NCBI GenBank assembly: GCA_021731365.1
Contig: JAKFXL010000034.1
Span: 1-44,785, forward strand
Direction: 5' to 3'
Length of the DNA: 44,785 bases
Source of the DNA: Gammaproteobacteria bacterium
GTDB taxonomy: Bacteria; Pseudomonadota; Gammaproteobacteria; Tenderiales; Tenderiaceae
Shown: positions 9,359 through 30,123 of the stretch, piece after piece
Position numbering within the stretch: position 1 is the stretch's first letter
How the letters are laid out: every line of letters starts with the position of its first letter
Notes under the pieces: model-generated
What the model was told of the DNA's origin: nothing
The model's database searches: none
What the model saw: only the letters and a program-made list of their open reading frames with translations
Position numbers and translations under genes: made by a program

Positions 9359-9450
9359 GGATTGTGTGTGACATCTCTTTTTGAACACTGTGATAGTCGT
9401 TACATTGTGGGGTGTGTTGTGCCTCTTAGCTGTTTATAGGGAGTATTTCG

Positions 9451-12047: not shown

Positions 12048-12076
12048 GGTTAATGGGTGAACTCCATGGTTAATGG
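12043..12076 (-). repeat. 14-bp direct repeat over the flippase start codon
   Basis: TCCATGGTTAATGG occurs at 12043-12056 and again at 12063-12076, a 20-bp period. On the - strand each copy carries an ATG. The downstream one is the flippase start (12047). The upstream one (12067) opens MEFTH-stop, ending at 12050. This may be a recent duplication or a translational coupling device. Confidence 0.8.
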
Positions 12077-12107
12077 TGTAGTCAGGTTTTGCATGAGAAC
12101 ATTGTAA

Positions 12108-13316
12108 TCATTTTGGCTTATGTTCGGTATGAATACGGTGAATAAGTTCATATAAATGGGCTGTTGTCTCTTGCCAGCTAAAATTATTGGCATACTCTCT
12201 CACCGCCCCTCTATCAGGGTAATGTTGGCGTAACGTCTGAATGCCAGAGGTTATGCCAGCTGCACTTCTATCACTAATTAATTGACCGGCTGTTTCATTG
12301 AGAACAACCTCAGGTGTGCCCGACACCGCAGTGGCGACCACGGGTGTACCACACGCCATCGACTCAAGTAGTACATTGGCCCAGCCTTCACGGCTTGAGG
12401 CGAGTACCATGCAGTCTGCAGCACTATAGTAATCAGCTAGCTGCTCCTGTTTTATAGCACCGGTAAATATGACGCGCTCTTCTACCTGGTGAAATACGAC
12501 TAATGCGCGCAGCTCTTTATCCATTGGGCCATCGCCAATCAATATCAGCTTGACGTCAGGCAGCTGCGTCAGTGCCTCAATGATAAAGTGGTGTCCTTTA
12601 CGTTCTATAAAGTGGCCAACAGAGATAAGCGTGAATGAATCCAGTTTTAATTTTGCACGTATTTCATCACGATTGCGTGGGCTAAATCGTTCCAGATCGA
12701 CCCCGTTACGCATTACAAGGTTGCTATTTTGTATAACGTCTAGTTTTTTTATCTCTTCCGAGAGGTAGCGGCAAACGCTAATTACAGCAGAACATTGATT
12801 GATGGCCCAAATGATCAACCGGCGTGGTAACCAATAGTGGGGATATAGAGTGATGTCATTGCCACGTGCAGTAATGATGGAAGGGAGTTTGAGGATTTTT
12901 GAAAATAGTACCGCCACCACGCCATCTGGATAGATGAAATGTGCATCAATCAGATCAAAATTTTGTTGTTGTAAATTTTTCATCGTAGGCCAGAGTGATA
13001 GGGCCATTAATAGTGGAGCCAGATTCATTCCAATCTTGGGTATAACAAGATAGCGTGGATGATGAATAGTCATGCCATGGCGTATTTCTCTTTTTGGGAT
13101 GGCTGCGTAAACACCATATTGGCCAAACATTTTATGTTTAATAGGAAACCATGGAACTGGTGCAACGACGGTAATCTCTATAGGATAGCTTTGTATAAGC
13201 TCTTTCATTCGTGTTTCCACAAATATGCCGTGGCGTTGCTGCTCTCGGTTGGGATATAGAGAGGTGAACGTAAGTACGCGAATTTTTTTAGATGGGTGAT
13301 TTTCTGATAATGCCAT
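12108..13316 (-). CDS. Glycosyltransferase family 4
   Basis: A 402-residue GT-B glycosyltransferase. The N-terminus has VLTFTSLYPNREQ..GIFVETR; the hinge is VMRNGVDLERF; the donor domain has LILIGDGPM and ASSREGWANVLLESMACGTPVVAT, with the E-x7-E pattern. It probably extends the EPS repeat unit in the cytoplasm. Its start overlaps the end of the GT2 gene by 29 bp, so the two are almost certainly co-translated. The donor sugar is not determinable. Confidence 0.88.
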   Translation of the reverse strand: MALSENHPSKKIRVLTFTSLYPNREQQRHGIFVETRMKELIQSYPIEITVVAPVPWFPIKHKMFGQYGVYAAIPKREIRHGMTIHHPRYLVIPKIGMNLAPLLMALSLWPTMKNLQQQNFDLIDAHFIYPDGVVAVLFSKILKLPSIITARGNDITLYPHYWLPRRLIIWAINQCSAVISVCRYLSEEIKKLDVIQNSNLVMRNGVDLERFSPRNRDEIRAKLKLDSFTLISVGHFIERKGHHFIIEALTQLPDVKLILIGDGPMDKELRALVVFHQVEERVIFTGAIKQEQLADYYSAADCMVLASSREGWANVLLESMACGTPVVATAVSGTPEVVLNETAGQLISDRSAAGITSGIQTLRQHYPDRGAVREYANNFSWQETTAHLYELIHRIHTEHKPK

Positions 13317-14094: not shown

Positions 14095-15903
14095 TTAATG
14101 GTGCCTGGACTCTAACCACTCGTTCAGTACGGCAAGTATCCAAACCATGGTGCCGTAGTATGATGCTGAGTTTTTAGTTCTATGAATATCGATGATATGG
14201 TCAATAAAATCTGGTTTTATATAACGGCGCTTTTTAAGGTCGGCCAAGTTATCATATATGTGTTCTTGCATAGCGGGTGATTTTTTTAGCCATTCACCAA
14301 ATGGCAGACCAAAACCATGCTTCGTCTTGTTGATGATCTGCTCAGGTAAAAACCCGGTAAGACACTCTTTATAAAAATAACGAAGATTTTGTCCTTTGAG
14401 CTTTAATGTTGAGGGTATTTTAGTAGATATATGGAGCAGTTCATCACTGAGCATCGGATAACGTACATTCATGCCGGCCATTGCGCAGGCTCGGTTCACT
14501 TTTATCAGGTCGTTATCTGCGAGTGTTGATTTCCATTCCATGTAGAGCATGCGATTTAGCATGCTGGCATCGGTTGGCCTGTTATAGCTAAGTCGTTTTT
14601 CGTTAACCGGGTATTGTTGATCGATCGTACTGAGGAAGTCTTTATGAAATATTTTCTCAGAGGAAAAATAGTTAATGAAACTGTAGCGCTCCATTCTATC
14701 GGGCATAGGGGTATTAGCCTGTTCAATGTAACTTTTGAGTTTGGCAAAAGGCTGATATTTGTTGTAGGCCATATTATTTAATAATAACGGCTCGAACAGA
14801 TGTTTTCTGAGTAGATTGGGCACTTTTTTGTAGGGTTCGAAGAGATATTGTTTGGCATAACGGGCATTCCCAGCAAATAGTTCATCACCGCCATCGCCTG
14901 CTAACAGAGTGGTGATTCCATCTTCCTTTGCTACCTTGGCGCATAGATAGGTGGGTATGGCCGATGAGTTACCAAATGGCTCATCGTATCCTCTGATCAC
15001 CGTAGAAAATGCTGCCGCCACATCATCAGGAGTTACGTAGTAGCTTCTCAGGTTAATACCAAAATGTTTTGCGGCAATTTTTGCGTATTCAGTTTCGTCA
15101 TAGCCGGACTCTTCAAAGCCCATGCTGTATGCACTGATTGTACGGTCTGCATGTTGTGATAAGTAACCAGTGACCGTTGAACTATCAAGCCCCCCACTAA
15201 GAAACGTCCCAGTGGTTGTAGAAACATCGTGTTTTATCACTGATTGATAGAGCGCTGCTCTCGTTTGTTCTTTTAATGTTGCTAATGAGTCATGATTGGA
15301 TTCATCAAAGGTGGGCATCCAATATAGTGATTTAGTCTGTGAACCGCTGAAAAAATGCACTGATTGTGCAGGCTCAAGTTTGTATATGTTTTTATAAATT
15401 GTCATTGGGCTTGATATGACATGTGAATCAATAAAGTTAAAAATTGCTTGGTCGTTTATGATGGGTGTGGCCTGCATTGATGCGGTTAATAGCGTAAGCT
15501 GGTTTCCGATTATTATCTGTTCTGAATTTTGAGTATAGAAAATTTGTGCGGACGAAAATTTATCAGTACTGATTAAAACAGCACCAGACTTTTTGTTGAA
15601 TGCAACAAGAGACACCCCTTCAGAGATATTAGATAAGTTAATATTATTAGAAATATATTCATTTAATATGATATAGGCAGCTTTCTGTCCAGATTCACCT
15701 TTATAAAAGACTAGGTCGCTGGATAGAATAACGACTGCATCGTTATTGTCCGCTATAAGAATAGGGTTAAGGAGCTGGTTATGATAGGCAATCCCGGCTC
15801 TTGAGTTTATGGGAAATATTGTTGGCGATAGTATGTTTTTACTATGAAGCGAATTTATTACAGTATTGTTATCAATATTGCACCAGAAAATGAATTTGTT
15901 CAT
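14095..15903 (-). CDS. Asparagine-synthase homologue lacking the glutaminase nucleophile
   Basis: A 602-residue protein. The C-terminal synthetase domain is intact: PP-loop SGGLDSS at 236-242, then GYDEPFGNSSAIPTY and AGDGGDELFAGN. The N-terminal glutaminase-like domain is degenerate. Residue 2 is Asn, not Cys, and no RGPD signature is seen. It therefore cannot take ammonia from glutamine in the usual way. Known family members with this pattern (beta-lactam synthetase, lasso cyclase) adenylate a carboxylate and let an amine attack it. Here the acceptor may be an EPS sugar or amino acid, which is inference. It lies between an XrtA-type FemAB gene and GT2. No lasso peptidase or precursor is seen nearby. 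Confidence 0.85.
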   Translation of the reverse strand: MNKFIFWCNIDNNTVINSLHSKNILSPTIFPINSRAGIAYHNQLLNPILIADNNDAVVILSSDLVFYKGESGQKAAYIILNEYISNNINLSNISEGVSLVAFNKKSGAVLISTDKFSSAQIFYTQNSEQIIIGNQLTLLTASMQATPIINDQAIFNFIDSHVISSPMTIYKNIYKLEPAQSVHFFSGSQTKSLYWMPTFDESNHDSLATLKEQTRAALYQSVIKHDVSTTTGTFLSGGLDSSTVTGYLSQHADRTISAYSMGFEESGYDETEYAKIAAKHFGINLRSYYVTPDDVAAAFSTVIRGYDEPFGNSSAIPTYLCAKVAKEDGITTLLAGDGGDELFAGNARYAKQYLFEPYKKVPNLLRKHLFEPLLLNNMAYNKYQPFAKLKSYIEQANTPMPDRMERYSFINYFSSEKIFHKDFLSTIDQQYPVNEKRLSYNRPTDASMLNRMLYMEWKSTLADNDLIKVNRACAMAGMNVRYPMLSDELLHISTKIPSTLKLKGQNLRYFYKECLTGFLPEQIINKTKHGFGLPFGEWLKKSPAMQEHIYDNLADLKKRRYIKPDFIDHIIDIHRTKNSASYYGTMVWILAVLNEWLESRHH

Positions 15904-15952: not shown

Positions 15953-16981
15953 TCATGGTAAGTATTTTACAATCTTAGGTCCGATGAAGTTGGCTATTTT
16001 TAATGGGAGTTTCTGCCAAAGTTGAATTGCCAGTCGATATTTTGGATTGTTTGGATTAAGGGCGGGTAGTGATTCATTATCAGCCTTCAACCAATAATGC
16101 CAATACAGTTGTTTCTCACTGGCTCCCCACTGACGTTTGAACTTATACGTTCCGCTATCTCTGGAGCATCGGCCAAAGTCGAAGGTGTGATAACCATGGG
16201 TAATAGCGAGTCGAAGTGTGTCCCAGTAGAGTGCCATGTTAGCGCTGATGTGATTATATTCTTTAAGGGACGATGCCCAGGGAATCTCAAGAGTGCCATT
16301 GAAACCAATTAAAAAAGCTGCGGCAATCGGTTGTTTCTGATGTTGTATAACAATAATATGGCTATTCTGTGCAAAGGTAGAGATGATCTCCCGGAAAAAA
16401 CTAATTGGATAAACAGGTGTGCCGAGATCACGCATGTTTTTTGAGAATACACTATAAAAATCGCCAAGCAGTTCGATACCTCCGACAATGGTTTGAACAC
16501 CTTCTTTCAGGGGGCGTTTGATTTGAGCGCGTAACTTTGATGAAAATGATTTCCATAACATCTCTTCATTATCAGGAAGTTCAAGAAGCATAGTTATTTT
16601 ATCGTGCTTGACGGGTAAGTTATCACGCTGTTGGCTGTCACGATACTCAATGTGGCTGACATTGAGTTTATTGCACATTATATTTGCGTGTTCCATTAGA
16701 GAATTTTCAATCTCTGGAGTATTACCAAGCGCGCCGCCGTAATTGAAGTATGGCATGGAAATAAAAAAATCACCAAAAAGGGGGCTTTTCAGCCGTATGA
16801 GTTGTAAAACGCCTAAAATCTCCCCGTTCTCGACGGCAGCTATTTGAATAGAGTTATGACCGAACACATTTTTTATTATCGTCACCCAGCATGACAAATG
16901 GTAGATGCCGCCAAGGGGTGATTTTCTGACATATTCATCCCAGGCACCTGTTTCTTGCTTTTCTATTGAGATGATATCCAT
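15953..16981 (-). CDS. XrtA-system FemAB-type aminoacyl/acyltransferase
   Basis: A 342-residue protein with tandem GNAT folds as in FemAB peptidyltransferases. Recognisable blocks are GGIYHLSCWVTIIKNVFGH near residue 25, MPYFNYGGALG, and the C-terminal FDFGRCSRDSGTYKFKRQWGA, which is characteristic of the PEP-CTERM/XrtA FemAB family (TIGR03019 as recalled). Members probably add an amino acid or acyl group to an amine on a sugar; the substrate is unproven. It is followed 49 bp later by the amidotransferase homologue and preceded by the TPR gene, 9 bp away. Confidence 0.88.
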   Translation of the reverse strand: MDIISIEKQETGAWDEYVRKSPLGGIYHLSCWVTIIKNVFGHNSIQIAAVENGEILGVLQLIRLKSPLFGDFFISMPYFNYGGALGNTPEIENSLMEHANIMCNKLNVSHIEYRDSQQRDNLPVKHDKITMLLELPDNEEMLWKSFSSKLRAQIKRPLKEGVQTIVGGIELLGDFYSVFSKNMRDLGTPVYPISFFREIISTFAQNSHIIVIQHQKQPIAAAFLIGFNGTLEIPWASSLKEYNHISANMALYWDTLRLAITHGYHTFDFGRCSRDSGTYKFKRQWGASEKQLYWHYWLKADNESLPALNPNNPKYRLAIQLWQKLPLKIANFIGPKIVKYLP

Positions 16982-16990
16982 AGCAGCGAG

Positions 16991-17755
16991 TTACTGCTTC
17001 TGCTTCACGTTGGAGGAGCTACTCTCATTGGTATTTTTCCATACGCCGGCATCAATTAATTGTTGTTTAAGTGAATTGAGTGGGTATTTCAGTGCGTATG
17101 CCTTTTGTGCGTGAATTAAAGCATCGTTAGGGCGTTTCATGCGAAGCAGGAGCAGGCCAATGTTATAGTGAGACTCAGCATTTTCGGGATTAATACTGAT
17201 AGCTTTTTTGTACTGAATCTCCGCTTCTTTGTACTTCCCGATACGATAGAGGTAAATTCCATGTAAAAGTGGAATGTGCTCCTGGTTAGGTCTGTATCTC
17301 TCGGCGCGTTGTAAATAGCATTCGGGCGGTGTAGAAAAGGGTTGGAAATTGTACCCACCTCTTTTGTTCGCTTTTAGCCGCTCTATTTCCAGTGTAATAA
17401 TGTCTCTTAGTGCCAACACGTGATTTGGGAATGCCCTTAAGGTGTAGTCATAATCGCCCCAAGCCAGATTGATTGTGATGGGATTAAGTCCGTCGCGTAA
17501 TCTTTCTGCTGCTCTTCCGTAGTGAATTCTATCAACTTCCCATAGCCTTGCATTGTCTACTAAAACCTTGTCTGTTGAATTGATAATATCAATGTAATCA
17601 TAAGGGCCGTGGGATTGTGGATTGCCGTCACACGTGATGCCGTCAATAGACATGCCGAACCAACCGATTGCCTCAGCATTTGTAGGCGCTATGAGGCATA
17701 TGCTCAGGCTAAATAGAGCAGTATAGATTCTTTTTATGTTTTTCTTAATGTTCAT
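16991..17755 (-). CDS. Secreted TPR protein of unknown function
   Basis: A 254-residue protein with a signal peptide (KK..KR, hydrophobic core, ending TNAEA at residue 29), so it is probably periplasmic. Residues 30 to about 145 (with DYIDIINSTDK and LNLAWGDYDYTLRAFPNH-like features) match nothing I can name. From about 160 there are two to three tetratricopeptide repeats, for example YRIGKYKEAEIQYKKAI and NAESHYNIGLLLL. It overlaps the upstream acyltransferase gene by 4 bp (ATGA). TPR proteins in EPS loci often scaffold polymerisation or export in the periplasm; that role is inference here. Confidence 0.7.
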   Translation of the reverse strand: MNIKKNIKRIYTALFSLSICLIAPTNAEAIGWFGMSIDGITCDGNPQSHGPYDYIDIINSTDKVLVDNARLWEVDRIHYGRAAERLRDGLNPITINLAWGDYDYTLRAFPNHVLALRDIITLEIERLKANKRGGYNFQPFSTPPECYLQRAERYRPNQEHIPLLHGIYLYRIGKYKEAEIQYKKAISINPENAESHYNIGLLLLRMKRPNDALIHAQKAYALKYPLNSLKQQLIDAGVWKNTNESSSSNVKQKQ

Positions 17756-18888
17756 ATGGTTTGTTTGGTACGTATTTTGGATGACACGGTTAACAATGAA
17801 TTTTTTACGGCTTTTCGTAGTTTTGAGACAATATAGATTAGATAGCCTTTTGAATGGGGGTTATAAACGATGACTGTTTCATGTGGTCTTAATTTTTTTG
17901 TCCATGCCATCTTATGTGGCATTACATCACCTAAAAAATCAAATTCGATATAACCCTCTTGATAATATTGGCGTAATGCCTCTTCTATTATCATTGCTCC
18001 TGGTGATAGTTCCTGATAGGAGTTGTCGAATGATGTTTTAATTTGGCCAACATAGCCATTTACTTGATAACATAAATTATAAGCTATCGCAATCCCTTCA
18101 AATTTTAATACATTGGCGATGAGAAGATTGTGCTTGCTGAGGTAGGGGATGAGATGTTTGTAGTAAAGAGTTTCTATTGGGCGGCTGGTTATATCCATGC
18201 TGTCTTGAACTTTCCAGCTACGTTGCTCAATGTGTAGTATGTCATTAATGAGATCATCATAATTATCGCCACCTCTAAACCAAATACTTTTCAGGGAGTG
18301 ATTGTTGGCCAACTCTTTTTCGCGTTTGTTGACTTTGTAACGGAATTTTTTCGGTTTTGAGGCGATAAGTTGTTCCCAAGTACCTGATAAGGCCAGATAA
18401 GGTGACGATTCGCTAAGGTATGTGGTTGATAATAAGCTGCTGGTTAATCCTTCGTATGTCTTTCCACCTATCTGCAAATCTTTAAATAGGATGGCGTCCC
18501 ACGAAGTTTTTTTTCTAAGGTGAGAAATGAATATTTCCATTGTCTCTTTTATGGTGAGTTGTGTAATCAGTTCTTGATGATATGTAACAAGGTTGGTCGC
18601 TAACTCAATGCACTTTGCGGTTATTCCTGAAATATTTTTCTCTACGAAATAGTAGGGGATAACGCTAGCCACCTCGCTATTTTTATAAATAACAAATACT
18701 TTTATATCATCGCTGATACGGAATGCATCGCAGGCGCATTTTAACCATCCTAGAGAAAGTGATGGGTTTATATTTTCATTTCTAATGATATTTGACCATG
18801 CTGAATCCATGCTGATAACAGCATTTTCGAACGATATTTCTGATGTTTCGTATGGCCCTGAATACGATGTCACAATCACTTCTGCCAA
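17752..18888 (-). CDS. FemAB/CelD-like GNAT acyltransferase
   Basis: A 378-residue protein of the Acetyltransf_6 (CelD/BcsL) type. The core is KPKKFRYKVNKREKELA, then IEQRSWK, then YNLCYQVNGYVGQIKTSF, then SPGAMIIEEALR, and IEFDFLGDVMPHKMAWTK. The GNAT domain lies at about 175-345. It probably transfers an acyl or aminoacyl group to EPS sugars in the cytoplasm. It shows the same block order as the proteins at 18993-20102 and 21565-22653 but is more diverged. The coding sequence is AT-rich. Confidence 0.8.
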   Translation of the reverse strand: MAEVIVTSYSGPYETSEISFENAVISMDSAWSNIIRNENINPSLSLGWLKCACDAFRISDDIKVFVIYKNSEVASVIPYYFVEKNISGITAKCIELATNLVTYHQELITQLTIKETMEIFISHLRKKTSWDAILFKDLQIGGKTYEGLTSSLLSTTYLSESSPYLALSGTWEQLIASKPKKFRYKVNKREKELANNHSLKSIWFRGGDNYDDLINDILHIEQRSWKVQDSMDITSRPIETLYYKHLIPYLSKHNLLIANVLKFEGIAIAYNLCYQVNGYVGQIKTSFDNSYQELSPGAMIIEEALRQYYQEGYIEFDFLGDVMPHKMAWTKKLRPHETVIVYNPHSKGYLIYIVSKLRKAVKNSLLTVSSKIRTKQTI

Positions 18889-18992: not shown

Positions 18993-20102
18993 CTATCCTT
19001 TTGTGTCGCGAAGAATATATTTTATGATATTTTTTGATCGTGTTGCACTGTATGCGATTCTGGATTTTATTTTTTTGTTAAATATGGTGTAGCGCTTTTG
19101 CGTGTAAGTGCTAGTTGCCCATCTCATTTTCATGGGGTCTTTTACGCCAAGCAAATCGTAATATTTTATTCCATGTGCGCAGAGATATTTTGTTATTTCA
19201 AACTTTATAATGTTCCCCGGGCTATATTTTTTGTAGTCGTCAGAAAAACTTGATTTTAGACTTTCGAATACCCCATTGAATAGAATTCCGTAGCTGTAAG
19301 CAATAGGGATATCTTTATCAAAGATAACAAATCCCATTAGCCAGTTATTGATGGCTGCCAGCTCTGTGAAATTGTTATAGAATTTTTCTTGGAGTTTATT
19401 GGTTGTGATCGATGTTCCTGATTGCTCTTTCCACGATTTTTTCTCTATATAGTGTATGTGTTCAATAAATTCATTGTGATTCTCAATGGATGTGTATATT
19501 TTTAAGTGCGTTTCTTTTTTAAGGCTAAGTTTTTTTAGCCGGGAAATAACATTGTATCTAAATTTTTTGTTGAGTCTGTTGATAAACGTTTCGTGAGACT
19601 CGGGGAGATGAATATATGGGGATTCAATATATGCATCATTTGTATACGATAAGTTGTATTTTTCGAGTGTCTTATTGACATTTTCTTCGTGATAACTGTT
19701 TGATGTGACGCTAAAAATTAAAGTATCCCATTGGTCAGTATTGTTGTGTAAGAATTTTATAAAGTTATCAAAATGGAGATATTCATTATCTTCTAGTATT
19801 AATCCATTCCTTGATGAATATATTTCTTGTATTTGTTCAATTGATTCTAATTTAATTATTTTGAAGTGGTTTTTAATTCTCTTGGAGTATGGAAAAATAA
19901 ATTTAATTGCGCCGTTTTTTTCGCTTGTAAATACGCCACTTTTATCGTGGAGTGAATGGCTTTTTATAATGGCGCTTGTCCATTCATAAGTGGAAGATAC
20001 CCCAGTGTTTTTTATGTGTGGATGGGCTGATGAGACAATACTGTTCCATGTTTTTTTTATTTCTTCGCAGTCGTGTATTGTTTTGATTTTTATTGTTGGC
20101 AT
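18993..20102 (-). CDS. FemAB/CelD-like GNAT acyltransferase, paralogue 1
   Basis: A 369-residue protein. I chose the ATG at 20102 because the protein then aligns from its first residues with the paralogue at 21565-22653 (IKTIHDCEEI/IKTLEACREL, then TWN, PHI, YEWT). The upstream in-frame ATG at 20147 would add 15 residues. Core blocks: LNKKFRYNVISRLKKL, IEKKSWKEQSGTSITTN, SYGILFNGVFESLKSSF, YSPGNIIKFEI, YYDLLGVKDPMKMRW. It is extremely AT-rich (16 G+C in the 60 bases 19441-19500, counted by eye). Acyl or aminoacyl transfer to an EPS sugar is the likely role. Confidence 0.8.
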   Translation of the reverse strand: MPTIKIKTIHDCEEIKKTWNSIVSSAHPHIKNTGVSSTYEWTSAIIKSHSLHDKSGVFTSEKNGAIKFIFPYSKRIKNHFKIIKLESIEQIQEIYSSRNGLILEDNEYLHFDNFIKFLHNNTDQWDTLIFSVTSNSYHEENVNKTLEKYNLSYTNDAYIESPYIHLPESHETFINRLNKKFRYNVISRLKKLSLKKETHLKIYTSIENHNEFIEHIHYIEKKSWKEQSGTSITTNKLQEKFYNNFTELAAINNWLMGFVIFDKDIPIAYSYGILFNGVFESLKSSFSDDYKKYSPGNIIKFEITKYLCAHGIKYYDLLGVKDPMKMRWATSTYTQKRYTIFNKKIKSRIAYSATRSKNIIKYILRDTKG

Positions 20103-20302
20103 GGCGTTGGTGAATGCGTGTTGTTTATAAGGATTATTGTAGAGCAACTGTTTTCTTTTCTGTTGTGCCTGAATTTTTTGGCTGAGTTTATTAGAGGAAT
20201 TTTTTTTGTTTTACGAATTATTTGAAAGGCAATAGTCAAAATATGGTTGCAAGATAGCAGTTTTTTGTTTTTTCCGGTCGTATTTTCTAGTCGTATAGTC
20301 AT

Positions 20303-21568
20303 TTATGTTCTAGAGGCTTCGTTGCATATTTCTGATAATAAGTGTGCTGTATTTCTTCGAGAATAGCTGTTTATAACACATTGCTCCAAGGGTGCTATTT
20401 CTTTGTTATTTATTGAAGTGATAAAGCCCTCTATATGTTTTTTTATTTCGTCTTGGTCATCCAGGGCCGCAATGTGTTTCATGCCTAATTTGGCAAGTAA
20501 TTTTGCAGTATCGCCATGGTGGTCTGTGAGAGCAAGAATGGGGCGTTTTGCGCGCAGATATTCATATAATTTTGCAGGGATGGCCGGATTCGATGTGTAG
20601 CCTTGAAATATTAATAACCCGTCAGTCAATAGCATCTCTTTGATTGCTTCACTGTAGGGAATAGGTGGTTTGAATTCGATTATGTCTGCGATGTCTTTAC
20701 CGACGACCATTTTTTTATAGTCATTCTCATGGCCGCATGCACGTAAGGTAATAACGAGGCTCTCTGAGCTAATCTTTTTTTCATGTTTTAGTTGTGAAAC
20801 GGCCTCAAAAAAATGGCTGGGGTCTCTATCGCTGGTGTTGTATATCAGACCGCTATGAAGTAGACGTATTTTTTTCTCTTGAATTTTTTCGGGGAGATTT
20901 TTTTCGGCCTCCTGAAAAGTCTCTTCATCGAAACCGTTAGGTATAACATGCCACTGTGCATGGTTTGCTTTTGGGTAGCGTTTCATGCATATGTCTTTTG
21001 CCCCCTCGGTGCAAAAGATAACGCGTATGGCGTGCTTTACAACGCTCTTTTCGATGAATAATCGGGCTTTTCTAACCAATTTGTTGCGGGGTGCCCATTC
21101 GCCTGTTTTAAGATCTTGCTCAACCATCGGGTCTCGGAAATCAACTATCCATGGCACGCCTGTTATTTTGTGAAGGCAGTAGGCGATTAGGTGCGTGGTG
21201 GCGAGTGGGTAGGTTGACCAGATAAGTTCTGGTTTGTGGCGTTTAATTGCCCGTACTCCCGCAGGTATTGCCCCGATAATCCAGCTAATCCATCGATCCG
21301 GAATGGCAAGTAATTGAGTGTGTCGACCTTTGATTGATAGGTGGCGAGCTGAGTCGAGGGCAAATGCCCTGATAGTTTCAACCTCTTTGGGTATCTCTGA
21401 GATAAGATCGTTCGATGTTTTTTCGTATGCTCGTGGGTGGGCGCTTAAGACAACTGGAAGCCATCCATCGTTGGGTAAATACTGACTGAATCGTAGGGTC
21501 CGTTGTACGCCACTGCTGCCTGCAAAGGGTGGGTAGTGGAAAGCGATCATTAGAATTTTTTTACTCAT
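20303..21568 (-). CDS. Glycosyltransferase family 4-like protein
   Basis: A 421-residue GT-B protein. The N-terminus (ILMIAFHYPPFAGSSGVQRT), WSTYPLATTHLIAY, WIVDFRDPM, and the C-terminal PAIPAKLYEYLRAKRPILAL are typical of this EPS glycosyltransferase group. Its start overlaps the end of the upstream FemAB-like gene by 4 bp (ATGA), so translation is coupled. It lies between two paralogous acyltransferases. That suggests the sugar it adds is the one they decorate, which is inference. Confidence 0.85.
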   Translation of the reverse strand: MSKKILMIAFHYPPFAGSSGVQRTLRFSQYLPNDGWLPVVLSAHPRAYEKTSNDLISEIPKEVETIRAFALDSARHLSIKGRHTQLLAIPDRWISWIIGAIPAGVRAIKRHKPELIWSTYPLATTHLIAYCLHKITGVPWIVDFRDPMVEQDLKTGEWAPRNKLVRKARLFIEKSVVKHAIRVIFCTEGAKDICMKRYPKANHAQWHVIPNGFDEETFQEAEKNLPEKIQEKKIRLLHSGLIYNTSDRDPSHFFEAVSQLKHEKKISSESLVITLRACGHENDYKKMVVGKDIADIIEFKPPIPYSEAIKEMLLTDGLLIFQGYTSNPAIPAKLYEYLRAKRPILALTDHHGDTAKLLAKLGMKHIAALDDQDEIKKHIEGFITSINNKEIAPLEQCVINSYSRRNTAHLLSEICNEASRT

Positions 21569-22653
21569 GTAAATGACCTGGTCTTTTCTACTCGGTATTT
21601 CTCCAGTACTGAGTAGGTGCTGGCAAGCTTTCCAGTGATGCTGCTGCTGTAGATGGTATATTGCGTTTGTATATAGCTGTCTTTAGTCCATTTTCGTTTT
21701 GACGGCTCAATAATACCAAGAAAATCAAATAGCATTAATTTGTTATCATGCAGGTCCAAAAAAACCATATAGTCTATAAGATGCCCTGGGCTATACTGTT
21801 TGTATTTCTCTTTGAAACTGGTTTTAAGGCACTCACAAACTCCGTTAAACACGATGTTTATACTATGTACAAAGGGTTCGTTATCTAGATAAATAATTGC
21901 GCCTCTTAACCAGCCCCGTTTGGCTGATTTTGGTATGAAGGAGTTATAAAAATCTTGCTGGTACTGATTTTTTGTAATAGAAGTGCCCGCTTCTTCTTTC
22001 CACGATGCGCGCTCTATTTCATAGACATCACTTAGAAAATCGGCACATTCGTTTTCATGAGTGATGGTCTTGAATGTTAACCGCCCAGTCTGTTCGAGAC
22101 TCTTTATGCTTGTTCTGAGGGTGTATCTGAATTTCTTTTCTAAGGCATTTAAAATATCATCTCTATCTTCCGGGAGTTTTTTCCAGGCAGATATTATGTG
22201 TTGTGTGCTGGTGTAAAGTGTACGTGTTTGATTTAGGTGGTCTGTTATAGCGACGTTGTCTTCTGGATTGCAGGTGGTTAATTTAAATGATGCAATGTCA
22301 TTTCTTTCCATTACTGAAGAGATTATATCAATGGAAGAAGCTGTTGATTTTCTGATGAGTCCGTTACGAGTTGCATATAGTTCGGCTACTTGCGACAGGT
22401 TTTTTTCCTGATATAGGTATCTGCTTTTCTGCTTTTTATACACGGGTAGAATAGCTGTTATTTCGTTTTTATCTCGGGCAACATACACGTGTACCAGTTC
22501 ATTTTTCAGGCGGGTCTCTGCCAACGATTCAGTCCATTCATAGGTCATGGATATCCCCGGTGTTTGAATATGGGGATTGTCATGTGATAACAAGGCGTTC
22601 CATGTGTCACGTAATTCTCTGCATGCTTCCAAGGTTTTTATTTCGATATTCAT
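21565..22653 (-). CDS. FemAB/CelD-like GNAT acyltransferase, paralogue 2
   Basis: A 362-residue paralogue of the protein at 18993-20102, with matching blocks in the same order. These are SMTYEWTESL near residue 35, YATRNGLIRKS near 92, LEKKFRYTLRTSIKSLE near 185, IERASWKEEAGTSITKN near 225, NIVFNGVCECLKTSFKEKY, YSPGHLIDYM, and LFDFLGIIEPSKRKWTK. It has no signal peptide. It is the second gene of the - strand operon, 7 bp from the PLP enzyme gene. Substrate unknown; most likely an amine on an activated or lipid-linked sugar. Confidence 0.8.
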   Translation of the reverse strand: MNIEIKTLEACRELRDTWNALLSHDNPHIQTPGISMTYEWTESLAETRLKNELVHVYVARDKNEITAILPVYKKQKSRYLYQEKNLSQVAELYATRNGLIRKSTASSIDIISSVMERNDIASFKLTTCNPEDNVAITDHLNQTRTLYTSTQHIISAWKKLPEDRDDILNALEKKFRYTLRTSIKSLEQTGRLTFKTITHENECADFLSDVYEIERASWKEEAGTSITKNQYQQDFYNSFIPKSAKRGWLRGAIIYLDNEPFVHSINIVFNGVCECLKTSFKEKYKQYSPGHLIDYMVFLDLHDNKLMLFDFLGIIEPSKRKWTKDSYIQTQYTIYSSSITGKLASTYSVLEKYRVEKTRSFT

Positions 22654-22660
22654 TAGATAT

Positions 22661-23821
22661 CTAGCCTAATACCGTTTTTATTGCCATGGCGGTTTTGTTG
22701 ATTTGTTGTGGCGTTATATTTTGGTGCACAGATAGGCTTAGTAGTGATTTTGATAGGTATTGGGCTGTTTCAATGGTTTCAGTGGAGCTGCATTTATTAA
22801 TGCTGCTGTGTAGCTCTTCACCAAAGGTAAACAGCACACCCCCGGATTTTTTTATGAGGTGGTCGTAGTCGCTGCGGTTGTTGATTAATACTGGATAAGC
22901 CCATGGGCAACAGCGTTTTGGGAGTGTGGGGAAAAGTGTTTTTGCTGCTGGGTGATGGGCAATCTGTTCGGCCAAGGCTTCGTAGTTTTTACGTCGGGTG
23001 GCTGAAATCTGGGCGAGATTGCTACGTTTTAAGATATGTGAGCAGATGGCGGGGATCTTATCGGCATAATGTTCCATCTCTGCCTTGTAGGCGCTGCTTT
23101 CAGCGGGTGCGTCTGCTTCAATCTGGCCCTGCTGTTTGTTCCTGTTGTTTACACGGATCTGTTCAAGTTTCTGAAGACCGTGTTTGATGATGCCATCTGA
23201 CATGTTGTTGATTGAGTATTCAACAATATGTTTGATATTTTTTAGTTTTGTTGTGGTGCTGAGGGTGATGCCATTTTTTTCGATGGCTGATACGAGATTA
23301 CCGTCATGCCGAAAGCCGCCACCCTCATGACATGGTACAAGTTTCCAAAATGAGTAAACAGAAAACTCTGCCCGTTTCCCTGTCAGTTCTAATGGGGCCG
23401 TTTTCAAAAACGAGTGTGACCAGTCGTCAATGATGGGGATCCCCAATGTGTCGCAGACGGCCTTGATTTCCGTAATCTCCTGTTCAAAACCGTAATAGTT
23501 GATGATGATAACGGCGGCGATAGTGGCCGATAGTTGGCTGATCAGATCCTGATTATCGATACTTAGATCGGCATTGATTCGGTAATATTGAACATTTAAT
23601 CCGGCATCCAGAATAGGGTGGATAACGGTTGGGCAGTGAAAGCTGGGCGCCAGTACGGTTTTTGCCGACCCCGATCTGCTGGATAATAGCGCTCTATAGA
23701 TGGCACCACGTGCTTTGTAGGTCAGGTGTGTCTGTGGATCGTCGTAGATCAGTGCCAGAGAGTTGGAGTCTTCCGGCTTGGTAAGATCAGAAAAATGGGC
23801 GCTAGGGTGGGTGCTTGTCAT
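22661..23821 (-). CDS. DegT/DnrJ/EryC1-like PLP-dependent enzyme
   Basis: A 386-residue fold-type I PLP protein of the sugar aminotransferase family. Asp132-Asp133 (IIDDWSHSF) sit where the pyridine-nitrogen contact is expected. Lys160 in SFWKLVPCHEGGG is spaced six residues before E-G-G, as in DegT enzymes, and should form the Schiff base. The rest is divergent, so transamination of a keto-sugar is likely but not certain. It is the first gene of the - strand operon and reads away from the acyl carrier protein gene across a 228-bp divergent promoter region. Confidence 0.78.
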   Translation of the reverse strand: MTSTHPSAHFSDLTKPEDSNSLALIYDDPQTHLTYKARGAIYRALLSSRSGSAKTVLAPSFHCPTVIHPILDAGLNVQYYRINADLSIDNQDLISQLSATIAAVIIINYYGFEQEITEIKAVCDTLGIPIIDDWSHSFLKTAPLELTGKRAEFSVYSFWKLVPCHEGGGFRHDGNLVSAIEKNGITLSTTTKLKNIKHIVEYSINNMSDGIIKHGLQKLEQIRVNNRNKQQGQIEADAPAESSAYKAEMEHYADKIPAICSHILKRSNLAQISATRRKNYEALAEQIAHHPAAKTLFPTLPKRCCPWAYPVLINNRSDYDHLIKKSGGVLFTFGEELHSSINKCSSTETIETAQYLSKSLLSLSVHQNITPQQINKTAMAIKTVLG

Positions 23822-24049: not shown

Positions 24050-24298
24050 ATGGCGTTGATCGATGAAGTTAAACAGATTCTTGGCGATGTTCTGCAGTTG
24101 GGAGACAAGGGTGACACCATGTCTGAAAGCACCCTGTTGCTGGGTAGTATGCCTGAGTTTGACTCGATGGCGGTGGTCTCTGTCATTACGGCAATAGAAG
24201 AGAATTACGGTTTTGTGGTGGATGATGATGAGATCGACGCCGAGGTGTTTGAGTCGATAGGGAGCTTGGCCCGTTTTGTAGAGCGGAAGCTCGGCTAA
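24050..24298 (+). CDS. Acyl carrier protein, XrtA-associated
   Basis: An 82-residue acidic helical protein. The phosphopantetheine attachment site is Ser39 in EFDSMAV; the canonical ACP version is DSL. The sequence is typical of the carrier proteins linked to exosortase A loci. It would hold an acyl or aminoacyl group as a thioester, loaded by the AMP-forming ligase at 28420-30000. Its stop overlaps the next ATG by 1 bp (TAATG), so it is translationally coupled to the hydrolase genes. Confidence 0.9.
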   Translation: MALIDEVKQILGDVLQLGDKGDTMSESTLLLGSMPEFDSMAVVSVITAIEENYGFVVDDDEIDAEVFESIGSLARFVERKLG

Positions 24299-25134
24299 TG
24301 TCTTTAAGAGGGATTGGGTGCCAGCCACTCTTTCTTAACGGGGCGCAGGGCCGCCTGTTTGCGCTGAGTTACCACCCCCCCCAGCTATTAACGCGCCGCC
24401 ATGGCGTGTTGATTGTTCCGCCGTTTGCGGAGGAGATGAATAAGTCACGCCGCATGTTGTCGCAGCAGGCACGGCTGCTGGCGGGGGAGGGGTATTTAAC
24501 CCTTCTGCCTGACCTTTATGGTACGGGAGAGAGTGACGGTGAGTTTAGTGATGCCAGCTGGACCGGTTGGTGTGAAGATCTGGTGTGTGGCTATCGCTGG
24601 TTGCGGGAGCGTGGTGTTGATACGGTGTCAGTATTGGCGCAGCGTACGGGGGCGCTTCTGGTGACGGCGCTGGTGCGTGAGAAGAGCGTCACGTTGAACC
24701 GGTTGGTTTTGTGGCAGCCGGTTGTCTCCGGGGATATGTTTCTGACCCAGTTTTTACGGTTGCGCCTGGCGGCAGAGATGGCTAAAGGTGTCGCTGAGAG
24801 ATCCAGTGTGGCCCAGATTAGAGCGGAACTGGAGGATAAGGGGACGATTGAGGTGGCCGGTTATACACTTTCACAGCATCTGGCGTTGCCGTTAGGTGAT
24901 AGCCGCATGGAGTTTCCTGCTGACTGTTTTGCCGGTGAGTTGCACTGGTGTGAGCTGGTGGCAACCGCTGACCGGGCGGTTACGGTAGTGACACAACGTG
25001 CGCTGGATGCACTTCAGGCCGGTGGTGTTCAGTGTGAATTACACAAGGTGGTTGGGCACCCCTTTTGGGGGGCGACAGAGATTGAGGATCTGCCCCTGTT
25101 ATTAGATACCACTCGGCGGATATTTTCCCAGTGA
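24298..25134 (+). CDS. Exosortase A system-associated hydrolase 2 (alpha/beta fold)
   Basis: A 278-residue protein with the family signature LIVPPFAEEMNKSRRM near residue 40 and DLYGTGESDGEFSD near 75, as recalled for TIGR03101. At the place where the nucleophile elbow is expected (near residue 115) the sequence reads LAQRTGALL, with no Ser or Cys. It may be non-catalytic or use another residue. It is always seen paired with hydrolase 1; here the pair overlaps by 4 bp. A role in releasing or transferring the ACP-bound group is inference. Confidence 0.88.
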   Translation: MSLRGIGCQPLFLNGAQGRLFALSYHPPQLLTRRHGVLIVPPFAEEMNKSRRMLSQQARLLAGEGYLTLLPDLYGTGESDGEFSDASWTGWCEDLVCGYRWLRERGVDTVSVLAQRTGALLVTALVREKSVTLNRLVLWQPVVSGDMFLTQFLRLRLAAEMAKGVAERSSVAQIRAELEDKGTIEVAGYTLSQHLALPLGDSRMEFPADCFAGELHWCELVATADRAVTVVTQRALDALQAGGVQCELHKVVGHPFWGATEIEDLPLLLDTTRRIFSQ

Positions 25135-26003
25135 CGGCCACGGTTGCCGGGACCCCGCTGCTGTTCATGTGTGGTGATAAAGAGTTGCTGGGCATGTTGC
25201 ATCTGCCCCAGCAACCTCGACGTACCGGCGTGGTGGTGGTGGTGGGTGGGCCACAATACCGGGTTGGATCGCACCGTCAATTTTTGCTTTTAGCACGCTT
25301 CCTCTCCCGGCAGGGTGTTGCCGTCTTTCGTTTTGATTACCGGGGTATGGGAGATAGCGAGGGGGAGATCGGCAGTTTTGAAGCGGTGGATGATGACATA
25401 AAGGCGGCTGTGGATACCTTTATGGCCAACGCGCCGGGTGTAGAGCAGGTGATGTTATGGGGGTTGTGTGATGCCGCCTCTGCCGCGCTCTTTTATGCCC
25501 ACCAGGATAGACGTATCAGTCAGCTGTTGTTGCTCAACCCCTGGGTCAGGACAGAGGCGGGGCAGGCCAAAGCTTATCTACGCCACTACTATTTGCAGCG
25601 TGTGATGGATAGAGAGTTCTGGGCAAAGCTGTTCTCTGGCAGGTTTGATTTTCGCGCCTCCCTACGTTCAATTTTGGGCTTTATCAGAACCAGTCGCCAA
25701 GGGGGTGCAGTAGAGCGTATTGAAGCGGATAGCCATCTGCTAGCGCCACCATTACCGCTGCCTGAGCGGATGCTGGAGGGATTGGGCCGTTTTGAAGGCA
25801 AGGTGCGGATTATCATCAGTGGTGATGATCTGACGGCGGCTGAGTTTATGGATTTGGTAAAATCGTCAAAGGGTTGGCGTAAGATATTAAAAAAACGGCG
25901 GGTTGACTTTAAGTCTCTGGACGGGGCCAACCACACCTTTTCAACTCAGCAGTGGCGTGACCAAGTGGCGGAATGGAGTCTCGAATGGATAGATACGGAA
26001 TGA
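25131..26003 (+). CDS. Exosortase A system-associated hydrolase 1 (alpha/beta fold, Cys nucleophile)
   Basis: A 290-residue protein starting with GTG inside the preceding stop (GTGA overlap). FRFDYRGMGDSEG is the alpha/beta-hydrolase strand, and WGLCDAASA is the nucleophile elbow with Cys113 in place of Ser. A C-terminal GANHTF supplies His268 as the probable catalytic His. This matches the family recalled as TIGR03100. A Cys nucleophile suits acyl transfer or thioester chemistry, consistent with the neighbouring ACP gene (inference). Confidence 0.9.
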   Translation: MTATVAGTPLLFMCGDKELLGMLHLPQQPRRTGVVVVVGGPQYRVGSHRQFLLLARFLSRQGVAVFRFDYRGMGDSEGEIGSFEAVDDDIKAAVDTFMANAPGVEQVMLWGLCDAASAALFYAHQDRRISQLLLLNPWVRTEAGQAKAYLRHYYLQRVMDREFWAKLFSGRFDFRASLRSILGFIRTSRQGGAVERIEADSHLLAPPLPLPERMLEGLGRFEGKVRIIISGDDLTAAEFMDLVKSSKGWRKILKKRRVDFKSLDGANHTFSTQQWRDQVAEWSLEWIDTE

Positions 26004-27139
26004 GTTCTGTGCGGTGGTGGCTCGGAATATTACTGATTGTGGCCGGAGTGGCCGAAGCGCGTACGCTGCAGGTGGGACCTGGCAAGCAGTTCCTGTTTCC
26101 CAGTGTGGCGGCCCAGTTTGCCGAGGATGGTGATCTGATTGAGATTGACGCAGCGGGACTTTATCAAAACGATCATGTTGTCTGGCCGCAGAACAATATC
26201 ACCATCAAGGGAGTGAATGGCCGCCCACATTTGAAGAGTTTTGGTTTGATCCCGAACCAGAAAGGGGTCTGGGTCATTCAGGGGAGCGGTGTGACTGTGA
26301 CCAATGTCGAGATCTCCGGTGCCAAGGTGAAAGATGGTAATGGCGCGGCTATCCGCCTGGAGGGGGAGAATTTCCACCTGTCCGACTGTTTAATCCATAG
26401 CAACCAAAACGGTATTCTCGCTGGCATACGCCAACCCGACAGTGAAGTGTTAATTGAGCGCTGTGAATTTGCCTTTAACGGTGCGGGTGATGGTTATACC
26501 CATAATATCTACATTGGTGAGGTAGGCAAGTTTACCCTGCGTGACAGCTACTCCCACAATGCGTTGGTGGGCCAGAATGTAAAGTCACGGGCGAAAGAGA
26601 ACTACATCCTCTACAACCGGCTGTTTGAAGGGACAACCAGTTATGCGGTGGATCTTTCAAACGGCGGTTATGGCTTGGTGATGGGGAATATCCTTTATCA
26701 GGGCAAGGATACTGAAAACTGGACGCTGGTGACGTTTGGTCCAGAGGGGCTGAGCTATCCTGAGAACAAGCTGGAGGTGGTTTACAACACCTTTTTGAGT
26801 GAACGTGCCGGTGGTGGTGTCTTTGTGAAGGCCGCAGATAAGGCGGACGTGAAGATTATCAATAATATTTTTGGCGGTATTGCGGAGCTGTTTTTAGGTG
26901 ATAAAAGCAGTGCGCGGATTGAAAATAATGTGCAGGAGAAGATGCCCTACGGTAGTTTCTCCCCTCAAGGGGTCACCTTAAGCGGTCTTGTGGCACCCAA
27001 GGTTATTGATATGGCCGTGCCGGTGGTTGACCTGCGTGGCGAGGCGTTGTTACCTCTCCGGCAGACCATTGCCAGTGTTGTCGGGGGGCGCAAACCCTTG
27101 GGCAAGGGGTTGGATATTGGCGCGCTGGAGTACCGTTAG
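25985..27139 (+). CDS. Secreted right-handed beta-helix protein
   Basis: About 384 residues with a short signal peptide (RWWLGILLIVAGVAEA) followed by repeated beta-helix rungs of the N-x-I / G-x-x-L type (IRLEGENFHLSDCLIHSNQNGI, VYNTFLS). The fold is that of pectate lyases and alginate epimerases. I chose ATG 25985 because GGAG lies 6 bp before it. ATG 26000, which overlaps the hydrolase stop as ATGA, is equally possible. No catalytic set of a named lyase family is recognised. It may act on the EPS in the periplasm as a lyase, epimerase or binding protein. It has no PEP-CTERM signal. Confidence 0.75.
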   Translation: MDRYGMSSVRWWLGILLIVAGVAEARTLQVGPGKQFLFPSVAAQFAEDGDLIEIDAAGLYQNDHVVWPQNNITIKGVNGRPHLKSFGLIPNQKGVWVIQGSGVTVTNVEISGAKVKDGNGAAIRLEGENFHLSDCLIHSNQNGILAGIRQPDSEVLIERCEFAFNGAGDGYTHNIYIGEVGKFTLRDSYSHNALVGQNVKSRAKENYILYNRLFEGTTSYAVDLSNGGYGLVMGNILYQGKDTENWTLVTFGPEGLSYPENKLEVVYNTFLSERAGGGVFVKAADKADVKIINNIFGGIAELFLGDKSSARIENNVQEKMPYGSFSPQGVTLSGLVAPKVIDMAVPVVDLRGEALLPLRQTIASVVGGRKPLGKGLDIGALEYR

Positions 27140-27167: not shown

Positions 27168-28400
27168 TTAGAGTAGCAACTCGCTGGCCGCCGGGTGGCT
27201 CAAAAACTTCTCCGGGCTGGCGCTCAGGCCATATGCCCCCGACTGATAAATAGCCACCAGATCACCAACTTCCACTTTTGGCAGCTCCATTTTGCTGGCC
27301 AGTAGATCGAGTGGTGTGCAGAGTGGCCCCACAATCGTAACGTTTTCATGCTCCGTGCAATCCATGCGGTTGGCGATGGCGACGGGGTAGTTTTTGCGGA
27401 TGACCTGACCAAAGTTGCCCGAGGCGGCAAGGTGGTGGTGCAGGCCGCCATCGGTCACAATAAACCGCTCCCCACGGGACTCTTTGATATCGATCACCCG
27501 ACAGATATAGAGTCCCGCTTCGCCAACAATAAACCGTCCCAGCTCAGTGATGAGTGTTGTTTCAGGTAGTGATTTGCTGAAGGTTGCCATTAAACGTTCG
27601 AGGTTCTCACCAATGGGGCGCAGATCAAGCCGCTTTTCACCGGGAAAGTAGGGGATGCCCAGGCCGCCACCTATGTTTAAGTGGTGTGGCTGCTGCGGTG
27701 CTGCGTTGCTGAGGCGTAACGCCAGTGCCAGTGTCTTTTCGTGGGCCTCCATAATTGCCTCAGGATTGAGGTTTTGTGATCCCCAGAAGAGGTGAAAGCC
27801 GCGAAACTCCAGCGCCATGGTTGCCATCTCTTGCAGCATGGCAGGTACCTGTTCTGCATCCACACCAAAAGGTTTGGGGCCGCCGCCCATCTTCATGCCG
27901 GAAGATTTCAGGTCGTAGTCGGGGTTTACCCGTATCGCCACTCGGGGTGTGATGCCCAGCGCCATGCCTATCTGTACGGCGCGGCGCATCTCGGTAACCG
28001 ACTCAAGGTTGATGGTGATGGTTGCGGCGATGGCCTGGCGCAGCTCACGGTCAGTTTTGCCGGGACCGGCGAGGCTGATTTTTTCTGCCGCCATGGTGGT
28101 ATCAAGGGCCGTTTGCATCTCGCCAGCAGAGGCGAGGTCAAAACCATCCACCAGTGTTGCCAGGTGTTGTACAACAGCGGGCATGGGGTTGGCCTTGATG
28201 GCGTAGTGGAGTTTTAGCGCTGTTGGCAGGGCGTCCCGCAGGTACTGGATACGTTCGCTGATCAGACGGCGGTCGTAGGCGTAAAAGGGGGTCTGCCCAA
28301 CCCGTTCTGCCAGCTGTGTGATGGGCATTCCGCCCACCTGGAGTTCGCCGTTGATAGTGGGAAACTGCTCCATCGGCGCGTGTATGGGTCTCTCTTTCAC
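27168..28400 (-). CDS. Exosortase A-associated PLP-dependent decarboxylase
   Basis: A 410-residue fold-type III decarboxylase of the diaminopimelate/ornithine decarboxylase family. Lys69 in YAIKANP binds PLP. HLNIGGGLGIPYF is the phosphate-binding glycine loop. The C-terminal GPLCTPLD and SGAYGLSASP supply the residues of the second subunit's active site. It matches the XrtA-associated group recalled as TIGR03099. It lies 19 bp after the acyl ligase gene on the same strand. It may decarboxylate an amino acid, possibly while attached to the carrier protein; the substrate is unknown. Confidence 0.92.
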   Translation of the reverse strand: MKERPIHAPMEQFPTINGELQVGGMPITQLAERVGQTPFYAYDRRLISERIQYLRDALPTALKLHYAIKANPMPAVVQHLATLVDGFDLASAGEMQTALDTTMAAEKISLAGPGKTDRELRQAIAATITINLESVTEMRRAVQIGMALGITPRVAIRVNPDYDLKSSGMKMGGGPKPFGVDAEQVPAMLQEMATMALEFRGFHLFWGSQNLNPEAIMEAHEKTLALALRLSNAAPQQPHHLNIGGGLGIPYFPGEKRLDLRPIGENLERLMATFSKSLPETTLITELGRFIVGEAGLYICRVIDIKESRGERFIVTDGGLHHHLAASGNFGQVIRKNYPVAIANRMDCTEHENVTIVGPLCTPLDLLASKMELPKVEVGDLVAIYQSGAYGLSASPEKFLSHPAASELLL

Positions 28401-28419: not shown

Positions 28420-30000
28420 TCAGTCAAACAGATTCTGGTATTCGCCGCTGAGCAGTTTGCGGTCGATCTTACCGTTGGGGTTGCGCGGCAGGGCGTCGCG
28501 TTGCTCAATGGCGTGGGGCACCATGAAGTTAGGCAACTGCTGTTTGCAGTGGCTGATGATCTTGTCAGGCTCCAGCTCGCCGGCCTGATTGGCGGTGGCC
28601 ACCAGCAGAATGGCTTGGCCGAGGGTCGGGTGGGGGATGCCCAAGGCCACCACTTCGCCCACCAGCTGGCTGGCGTAGATCACCTCTTCCACCTCGGTTG
28701 GGCTGACACGATAGCCGGAGGTTTTGATCATTTCGTCACGGCGCGCCACAAAATAGAGATACCCCTCATCATCCATTTTGACGGTATCCCCCGACCAGAC
28801 TGCAATTTCGGTGAGGGTGAGCGCCGGATTTTGCCCGGGCAGTGGTTTAAAACGTTCGGCGGTTTTGGCCGGATCATTCCAGTAGCCCATGGCCACCAGT
28901 GCCCCCCGATGTACCAGCTCGCCCGGCTCGCCCGGCGCACAGCCACTGCCATCGTCACGCACGACCATAATCTCAGCATTGGGGATCGCCTTGCCCATGG
29001 AGTCAGGGCGGTTGTCGATCTCCTCCGGCGGCAGATAGGTAGAGCGGAACGCCTCGGTCAGGCCATACATGAGGAAGAACCGGCTGTTGGGCAGGGAGGT
29101 ACGTAATCTGGCCAAGGTGGTTTTAGGCATTGCGCCACCAGAGTTGGTCATGTAACGCAGAGAACTAATCGCCTCTGCTGGCCACTCCAGCTCCGCCAGC
29201 TGGTTCCAGAGCGGTGGTACCCCGGCCAGACCGGTGATCTGCGCGTTGGCCACCATCTTCAACACATCCCGTGGCAGCAGATAGTCCATCAGCACCGTGG
29301 TTGCGCCGGTATAAAAGGCGGTACTGAGCTGGCTGAAACCGTAATCAAAACTGAAGGGCAATACGGCGAGCAGGCGATCTTCCGGGCTGTTGTGCAGATA
29401 CTCCGCCACACTTTTTGCCCCGGCCACCATGTTTTTGTGGGAGAGCACCACCCCTTTGGGTTTGCCGGTACTGCCAGAGGTGTAGAGGATAGCGGCCATA
29501 TCGGCGTCAATCCGGCGGTGTGGCCGTCTGCCCGTCCCTACTCCGCGTAGCGCCTCCCAAGCGAGGCAGTTCACGGGAGCACCTTCTGGCAGGTCGGCAG
29601 CCGCACAGTTGACCACGATAATGGTGTGCAGATCGTGGCACTGTGGCAACATCTCTTTCAGCTGTTCATAACGTTCTTTGGCGGTGATCAGTATACGGAC
29701 ATTACAATCGGCCAGGATGTAACCGACCTGTGGGCTTTTGAGCAGTGGATTGACCGGTACAAATACCCCGCCGGTCTGACTGATGGCAAAAAATGAGATG
29801 ACACTCTCAGGCAGTTTAGGCAGGTAGATGGCCACCCGTTCGTCGCGCTCCAGACCGATATCGAGCAACGCCTGGGCAATAGACTCCACCTCAAGTGCCA
29901 GCGTTGCGTAACTGTACCGGCTGGTTTTATGTTGCAGCGCCACCTGCTCGGGGCGCTGTGTGGCGGAGTTTATAATCAGGTTGTGGAGTAGGTCAGTCAT
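28420..30000 (-). CDS. Exosortase A-associated AMP-forming acyl-CoA ligase
   Basis: A 526-residue adenylating enzyme. The P-loop-like motif ILYTSGSTGKPKGVVLSHK lies near residue 170. MYGLTEAFRSTYL and YLYFVARRDEMIKTSGYRVSP (the hinge) follow, and the C-terminal NPNGKIDRK carries the catalytic Lys. I chose ATG 30000, which matches the family N-terminus, over ATG 30018. The XrtA group (TIGR03098 as recalled) is predicted to activate an acid and load it onto CoA or the nearby carrier protein. It is the first gene of a two-gene - strand operon with the decarboxylase. Confidence 0.92.
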   Translation of the reverse strand: MTDLLHNLIINSATQRPEQVALQHKTSRYSYATLALEVESIAQALLDIGLERDERVAIYLPKLPESVISFFAISQTGGVFVPVNPLLKSPQVGYILADCNVRILITAKERYEQLKEMLPQCHDLHTIIVVNCAAADLPEGAPVNCLAWEALRGVGTGRRPHRRIDADMAAILYTSGSTGKPKGVVLSHKNMVAGAKSVAEYLHNSPEDRLLAVLPFSFDYGFSQLSTAFYTGATTVLMDYLLPRDVLKMVANAQITGLAGVPPLWNQLAELEWPAEAISSLRYMTNSGGAMPKTTLARLRTSLPNSRFFLMYGLTEAFRSTYLPPEEIDNRPDSMGKAIPNAEIMVVRDDGSGCAPGEPGELVHRGALVAMGYWNDPAKTAERFKPLPGQNPALTLTEIAVWSGDTVKMDDEGYLYFVARRDEMIKTSGYRVSPTEVEEVIYASQLVGEVVALGIPHPTLGQAILLVATANQAGELEPDKIISHCKQQLPNFMVPHAIEQRDALPRNPNGKIDRKLLSGEYQNLFD

Positions 30001-30123
30001 ACAATATGGGCGCCGCATTCCGTGTGAGTTGTTGGACCATTATCAGGCGTGGCTGCCATTATAGGCTATGCTGTTGGGCGAAAAAAATTATATCCCGTCA
30101 GAGGGGTGTGTCGGTTCGAATAG

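Follow-up and report, generated by a model that had tools for sequence, protein, structure and literature searches.

Why a single exopolysaccharide cluster should carry several FemAB-like genes in one run, and what their products might transfer, is the question raised by the locus examined here. The window is a complete contig of 44,785 bases, and profile matches to XrtA, the TIGR03108 amidotransferase, the TIGR03097 protein and others mark it as carrying an XrtA exopolysaccharide cluster. The minus-strand order is a DegT-type aminotransferase, F1, a GT4-family glycosyltransferase, F2, F3, a TPR protein, Fx, an asparagine-synthase-like protein, two glycosyltransferases and a flippase. All four FemAB-like ORFs are present on the minus strand: F1 (21565..22653), F2 (18993..20102), F3 (17752..18888) and Fx (15953..16981). 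Each passed the 22-bit cut-off of PF13480 (Acetyltransf_6), with 80.7, 59.2, 57.3 and 59 bits, respectively. The F2 coordinates are those of its ATG-started form, the ORF staying open to a TTG at 20147, and F3 is listed with a TTG start that is a tentative assignment. Judged from gene spacing alone, this closely spaced run is a putative operon; internal promoter matches in it were fewer than in shuffled sequences and are therefore uninformative.

The preliminary description had presented F1 and F2 as a duplicated pair flanking the glycosyltransferase, and the two are indeed full-length paralogues, with 33.5% identity over 349 aa (E 7.8e-70, z 79 against shuffles). The shared blocks reported for them (KKFRY, SWKE..GTSIT, YSPG and DFLG/DLLG) were found in the same order. 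Similarity extends beyond the GNAT core, since both domains are alike: 30% identity in the N-terminal domain (z 30) and 38% in the C-terminal domain (z 64). The refuting outcome named earlier, a likeness confined to that core, was thus not observed. F3, described as a third and more distant relative, proved a genuine homologue, with 25% identity to F2 (E 8e-28) and 22.5% to F1 (E 1e-20). In a tree of 44 proteins F3 fell in a clade with genes of Bowmanella, G237, G121, G335, G143 and one MAG; by its sequence relationships it forms a subfamily apart, with orthologues of its own. The resemblance of Fx to F1, F2 and F3 was confined to the C-terminal core (z 3.5-5), with z about 0 in the N-terminal domain.

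Fx had been called an XrtA-type FemAB protein, and it passed the 260-bit equivalog cut-off of TIGR03019 with 367 bits. None of the others reached 260 bits in this test: F1 scored 15.1 bits, and F2 and F3 were not listed. Fx alone also matched the Pfam FemAB family PF02388 (56.7 bits), F1-F3 falling below the cut-off. Pairwise comparison of the four, part of the check proposed earlier, returned F1 and F2 as paralogues, F3 as more distant and Fx as related in the core only. The picture of four comparable enzymes was therefore not upheld: Fx is an ordinary single-copy XrtA FemAB, and F3 belongs to its own subfamily. The judgement that four such enzymes in one place are unusual held up better. Among 41 TIGR03099 genomes tabulated, only the window had four PF13480 genes within 40 kb of TIGR03099; two genomes had three, three had two, twelve had one and 23 had none, counts that are lower bounds because contigs are broken.

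The run was compared with related loci. Bowmanella yangjiangensis Y57 has the order DegT, F, GT, F3, TPR, with a single F1/F2-type gene. The glycosyltransferase between F1 and F2 (20303..21568, minus strand; PF13579/PF13439) has homologues with 48-49% identity at the equivalent position in G237, G335 and Bowmanella. The TPR protein (16991..17755, minus strand; TPR families), which overlaps F3 and has a putative signal peptide as judged by eye, has a 41% homologue immediately after F3 in Bowmanella. One clade of the 44-protein tree held F1, F2, a Bowmanella gene and a G237 gene. Within it, F2 was sister to the Bowmanella gene (support 98/82, and 92/87 in a smaller tree), and F2 is at least as near to this single-copy gene as to F1. 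The split between F1 and F2 is, on these sequence relationships, old. Recent tandem duplication of F1 to give F2 is not favoured by the tree, although a p-AU of 0.115 for an F1+F2 clade means that this grouping is not rejected.

F2 looks like an old paralogue inserted between the glycosyltransferase and F3, because the Bowmanella order has no second copy, non-coding spacers of 200 and 104 nt flank F2 where F1/GT and F3/TPR by contrast overlap, and its GC content (32.5%) is the lowest of the genes measured. A tblastn search of the F2 spacers found no glycosyltransferase remnant, and no mobile-element repeats flanked F2; the sole find was a 15-nt A/T-rich repeat pair with one copy within F2 and the other within the glycosyltransferase gene. 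Among 295 genomes of Bowmanella's family, close F1/F2-type genes occurred in Bowmanella only. A pattern scan of genome contigs yielded no relatives of F1/F2 and six of F3. These features might also fit a surplus copy of F1 that is redundant or in decay and has no role of its own, a reading that concerns F2 alone and is compatible with any of the functions considered below: the spacers on both sides, the low GC and the single Bowmanella copy would all suit it. We consider it improbable, however, because the F2 reading frame is intact, every residue invariant in a 10-row alignment is retained, and its equal nearness to the Bowmanella gene and to F1 implies that F2 has been kept for a long time.

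The label FemAB-like was right at the level of fold. Predicted models of F1 (pLDDT 89.5) and F3 (pLDDT 89.6) showed the tandem GNAT fold of the FemABX enzymes, and Foldseek returned FemX as the best PDB match for both (E 1.5e-12 for F1). For F3, FemX aligned with a Z of about 20 over about 305 residues, compared with about 15 for tandem acetyltransferases. PDB sequence searches with F3 or with an F1-F3 profile gave nothing relevant. An alignment of Fx with FemX paired the FemX motif YVFK (Lys305) with YKFK in Fx (Lys282), and the invariant lysine of F1-F3 (Lys319 in F1, Lys326 in F3; motif FDFLG...KxxW) aligned with Fx Lys282; the Lys305 equivalence of F1-F3 is thus a two-step sequence alignment through Fx.

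Might F1-F3 instead be ordinary acyl-CoA-dependent N- or O-acyltransferases, carrying out acetylation or a similar reaction, that happen to have a FemX-like tandem fold? The family name Acetyltransf_6 points that way, and tandem GNAT acetyltransferases, including a glucosamine N-acetyltransferase, also match at the Z of about 15. Against this, FemX stands about 5 Z units above the acetyltransferases for F3 and is ranked first for both F1 and F3, and such an activity would come as a surprise.

On the acceptor side, the first gene of the run (22661..23821, minus strand) encodes a DegT/DnrJ/EryC1-type sugar aminotransferase (PF01041, 57 bits). Its SxxK catalytic lysine was kept in all eight aligned proteins, and a comparison with PDB sequences gave no match at 1e-5. 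A DegT gene also adjoins a PF13480 gene in G237, Bowmanella, G143, G173, G343 and G352. The DegT enzyme is a candidate maker of the acceptor amine.

A set of genes overlooked in the preliminary description bears on the donor question. Plus-strand genes begin 229 bases from DegT and encode a carrier protein, hydrolases 2 and 1 of the XrtA system and a beta-helix-type protein; beyond them lie a decarboxylase and a ligase on the minus strand. By its predicted domains, the carrier protein, ligase and decarboxylase set is a complete donor-type module beside the putative operon. The stand-alone acyl carrier protein (ACP; 24050..24298, 82 aa) scored 24.6 bits against the PF00550 cut-off of 20.8 and 93 bits against PDB 2lki. 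It has the attachment site EFDSM, and its homologues occur in other XrtA clusters with EFDSM/ELDSM conserved. Hydrolase 2 (24298..25134; TIGR03101, 245 bits) and hydrolase 1 (25131..26003; TIGR03100, 365 bits) follow. The AMP-forming ligase (28420..30018; TIGR03098, 820 bits) resembles amino-acid-adenylation enzymes: its best solved match was an NRPS adenylation domain, and its SFD motif was conserved in 7 of 7 sequences. The Asp of the FD motif in adenylation domains binds the alpha-amino group. With activation at the alpha-carboxylate, decarboxylation would have to take place at a second carboxylate, so that no particular amino acid is predicted. The PLP-dependent decarboxylase (27168..28400; TIGR03099, 622 bits) has BtrK as its closest solved relative (7ru7/2j66, 252 bits, vs 173 for diaminopimelate decarboxylase), and the two share the motifs KMGGxPxxFGxD and QNLN. 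The BtrK substrate is glutamyl-S-ACP (glutamyl-S-BtrI), which is decarboxylated to a GABA thioester (PMC7857480).

Gene neighbourhoods in other genomes link PF13480 transferases to this module. In G121 an F3-type gene lies between the TIGR03098 ligase and the TIGR03099 decarboxylase, and in G237 and G335 F3-type, DegT and GT genes lie there together; the three genomes with this order all belong to one genus. In each of four genomes a PF13480 gene immediately precedes the ACP gene on its strand: G255 (4-nt overlap), G230 (about 2 nt), G143 (41 nt, F3-type) and G114 (133 nt). These four genes represent different clades. TIGR03099 was present in 8 of 8 genomes with F3-type proteins, compared with 42 of 369 genomes of the class. 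Within the class sample the association was 5 of 5 (hypergeometric p 1.5e-5, or 1.4e-3 counting three genera). TIGR03019 and TIGR03099 occurred together more often than expected by chance, in 32 genomes (Fisher p 8e-15, with no correction for kinship). The module is not bound to any single transferase, since an F3-type protein occurred in only 5 of the 42 TIGR03099 genomes and 54 of 86 TIGR03019 genomes had no TIGR03099. In the window itself the ACP module stands outside the F1-F2-F3 run, which counts against an ACP donor. In the literature covered, no paper joined exosortase with FemAB, and a term search of the 2006 PEP-CTERM paper found no mention of these genes.

Protein families, the F1 and F3 folds, paralogy, gene order and conserved residues form the basis of the explanation that we prefer, to which we give a probability of about 0.5: FemX-type F1-F3 would acylate one or more DegT-made amino sugars of the XrtA-system exopolysaccharide, most likely with an ACP-borne acyl or aminoacyl donor. 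We infer the donor, the acceptor, the order of steps and the activity of all three enzymes. The DegT enzyme would make the amine on the sugar, and the adenylation-type ligase would load the carrier protein. The BtrK-like decarboxylase would then trim the carrier-bound group to an acyl or (decarboxylated) aminoacyl thioester, and F1, F2 and F3 would acylate the amino sugars, probably at the stage of an activated or lipid-linked precursor. F3 would be the likeliest user of the ACP-borne donor. F1 belongs to an older DegT-F1-GT unit, and F2, the extra F1-subfamily member inserted before F3, probably has a different acceptor or donor. As a type of function, N-acylation of a DegT-made amino sugar by FemX-fold enzymes has the best support. 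For F3, a donor on the ACP accounts most economically for the linkage; for F1 and F2 this reading is weaker. Several different decorations, as proposed earlier, are plausible. The two XrtA hydrolases could, against this explanation, be the true partners of the carrier protein.

A tRNA donor is the main rival to the ACP donor. F1-F3 might, like FemX or the streptothricin enzymes, transfer amino acids from aminoacyl-tRNA to amino sugars of the polysaccharide, with the ACP module serving another modification. FemX and FemX-like antibiotic enzymes, of which 9wqx and 9wqy were among the nearest folds, use aminoacyl-tRNA as donor (PMC12945691, a review of tRNA-dependent GNAT-fold enzymes). The nearest folds belong to tRNA-dependent enzymes, among them Sbb17/Sba18 in complex with streptothrisamine, an amino-sugar antibiotic; the Lys305 equivalent is kept, and F2 is strongly basic, with a computed charge of +16. 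F1 and F3, however, have computed charges of only about +3, and F3-type genes, which in relatives adjoin the ACP, the ligase or the decarboxylase gene, turned up in no genome lacking TIGR03099. On balance we regard tRNA-dependent transfer as rather unlikely.

The locus can be compared with several known systems. FemX of Weissella viridescens and the FemABX enzymes share with F1-F3 the tandem GNAT fold without a coiled-coil arm, the Lys305-equivalent lysine and, by our reading, amine acylation on a cell-surface precursor; here, however, there is no peptidoglycan context, identity in structural alignments is about 10%, and the neighbours point to an ACP-borne donor. The TIGR03019 XrtA/PEP-CTERM FemAB proteins include Fx and occur in the same type of cluster, but F1 scores 15 bits against this family, F2 and F3 are absent from its matches, and F1 and F3 have no N-terminal similarity to Fx. 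The aminoacyl-tRNA-dependent peptide synthases of the Sba18/Sbb17 type (streptothricin group) are among the nearest solved folds and act on an amino-sugar compound; they differ in their antibiotic pathway, aminoacyl-tRNA donor and identity of about 10%. The butirosin BtrI/BtrK aminoacyl-ACP pathway shares a small carrier protein and a BtrK-type decarboxylase, whereas the window has an adenylation-type ligase, an exopolysaccharide cluster and a FemX-fold candidate transferase.

A more specific proposal, offered tentatively and with the odds somewhat against it, is that F3-type FemX-fold enzymes receive a decarboxylated aminoacyl group from a free-standing carrier protein, not from tRNA, and transfer it to an exopolysaccharide amino sugar. 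The polymer would then be positively charged or decorated with amides, and F1 and F2 would add further groups. If the carrier-protein reading is true, it would assign a testable function to genes of the XrtA system for which the NCBIfam names indicate no pathway: TIGR03098, TIGR03099, the ACP and perhaps the hydrolases. It would also widen the known donor range of the FemX fold, and the chemistry would bear on the tuning of polymer charge in floc- and biofilm-forming bacteria.

Other features of the window and of related XrtA clusters were recorded. The asparagine-synthase-like protein (14095-15903, minus strand) matched PF00733 only among synthase and glutaminase domains and starts MNKFIFWCNI, without the Met-Cys start of the TIGR03108 protein (2988-4880), and may use another amine source. 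Its homologues (42-43%) occur in L050, L052, L055, L093 and L094. At L053 (G024:C15), 8641-13110, a run of three PF13480 genes accompanies DegT and glycosyltransferase genes, in a genome with no TIGR03099 match at the cut-off used.

The beta-helix-type protein (25973-27139, plus strand) overlaps hydrolase 1 and has a putative signal peptide and, by eye, a right-handed beta-helix look; its homologues (33-43%) lie beside the ligase gene in L049, L051 and Bowmanella L101. In other XrtA clusters the middle glycosyltransferase of the window has a second homologue (40-44%), at L049:14665-15921, L051:11179-12438 and L094:10100-11386. It adjoins hydrolase 1 in L049 and L094, and in L051 a TPR gene intervenes. 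A single ORF at L092:5797-7653 matched hydrolase 1 as well as hydrolase 2, pointing to a fusion of the two.
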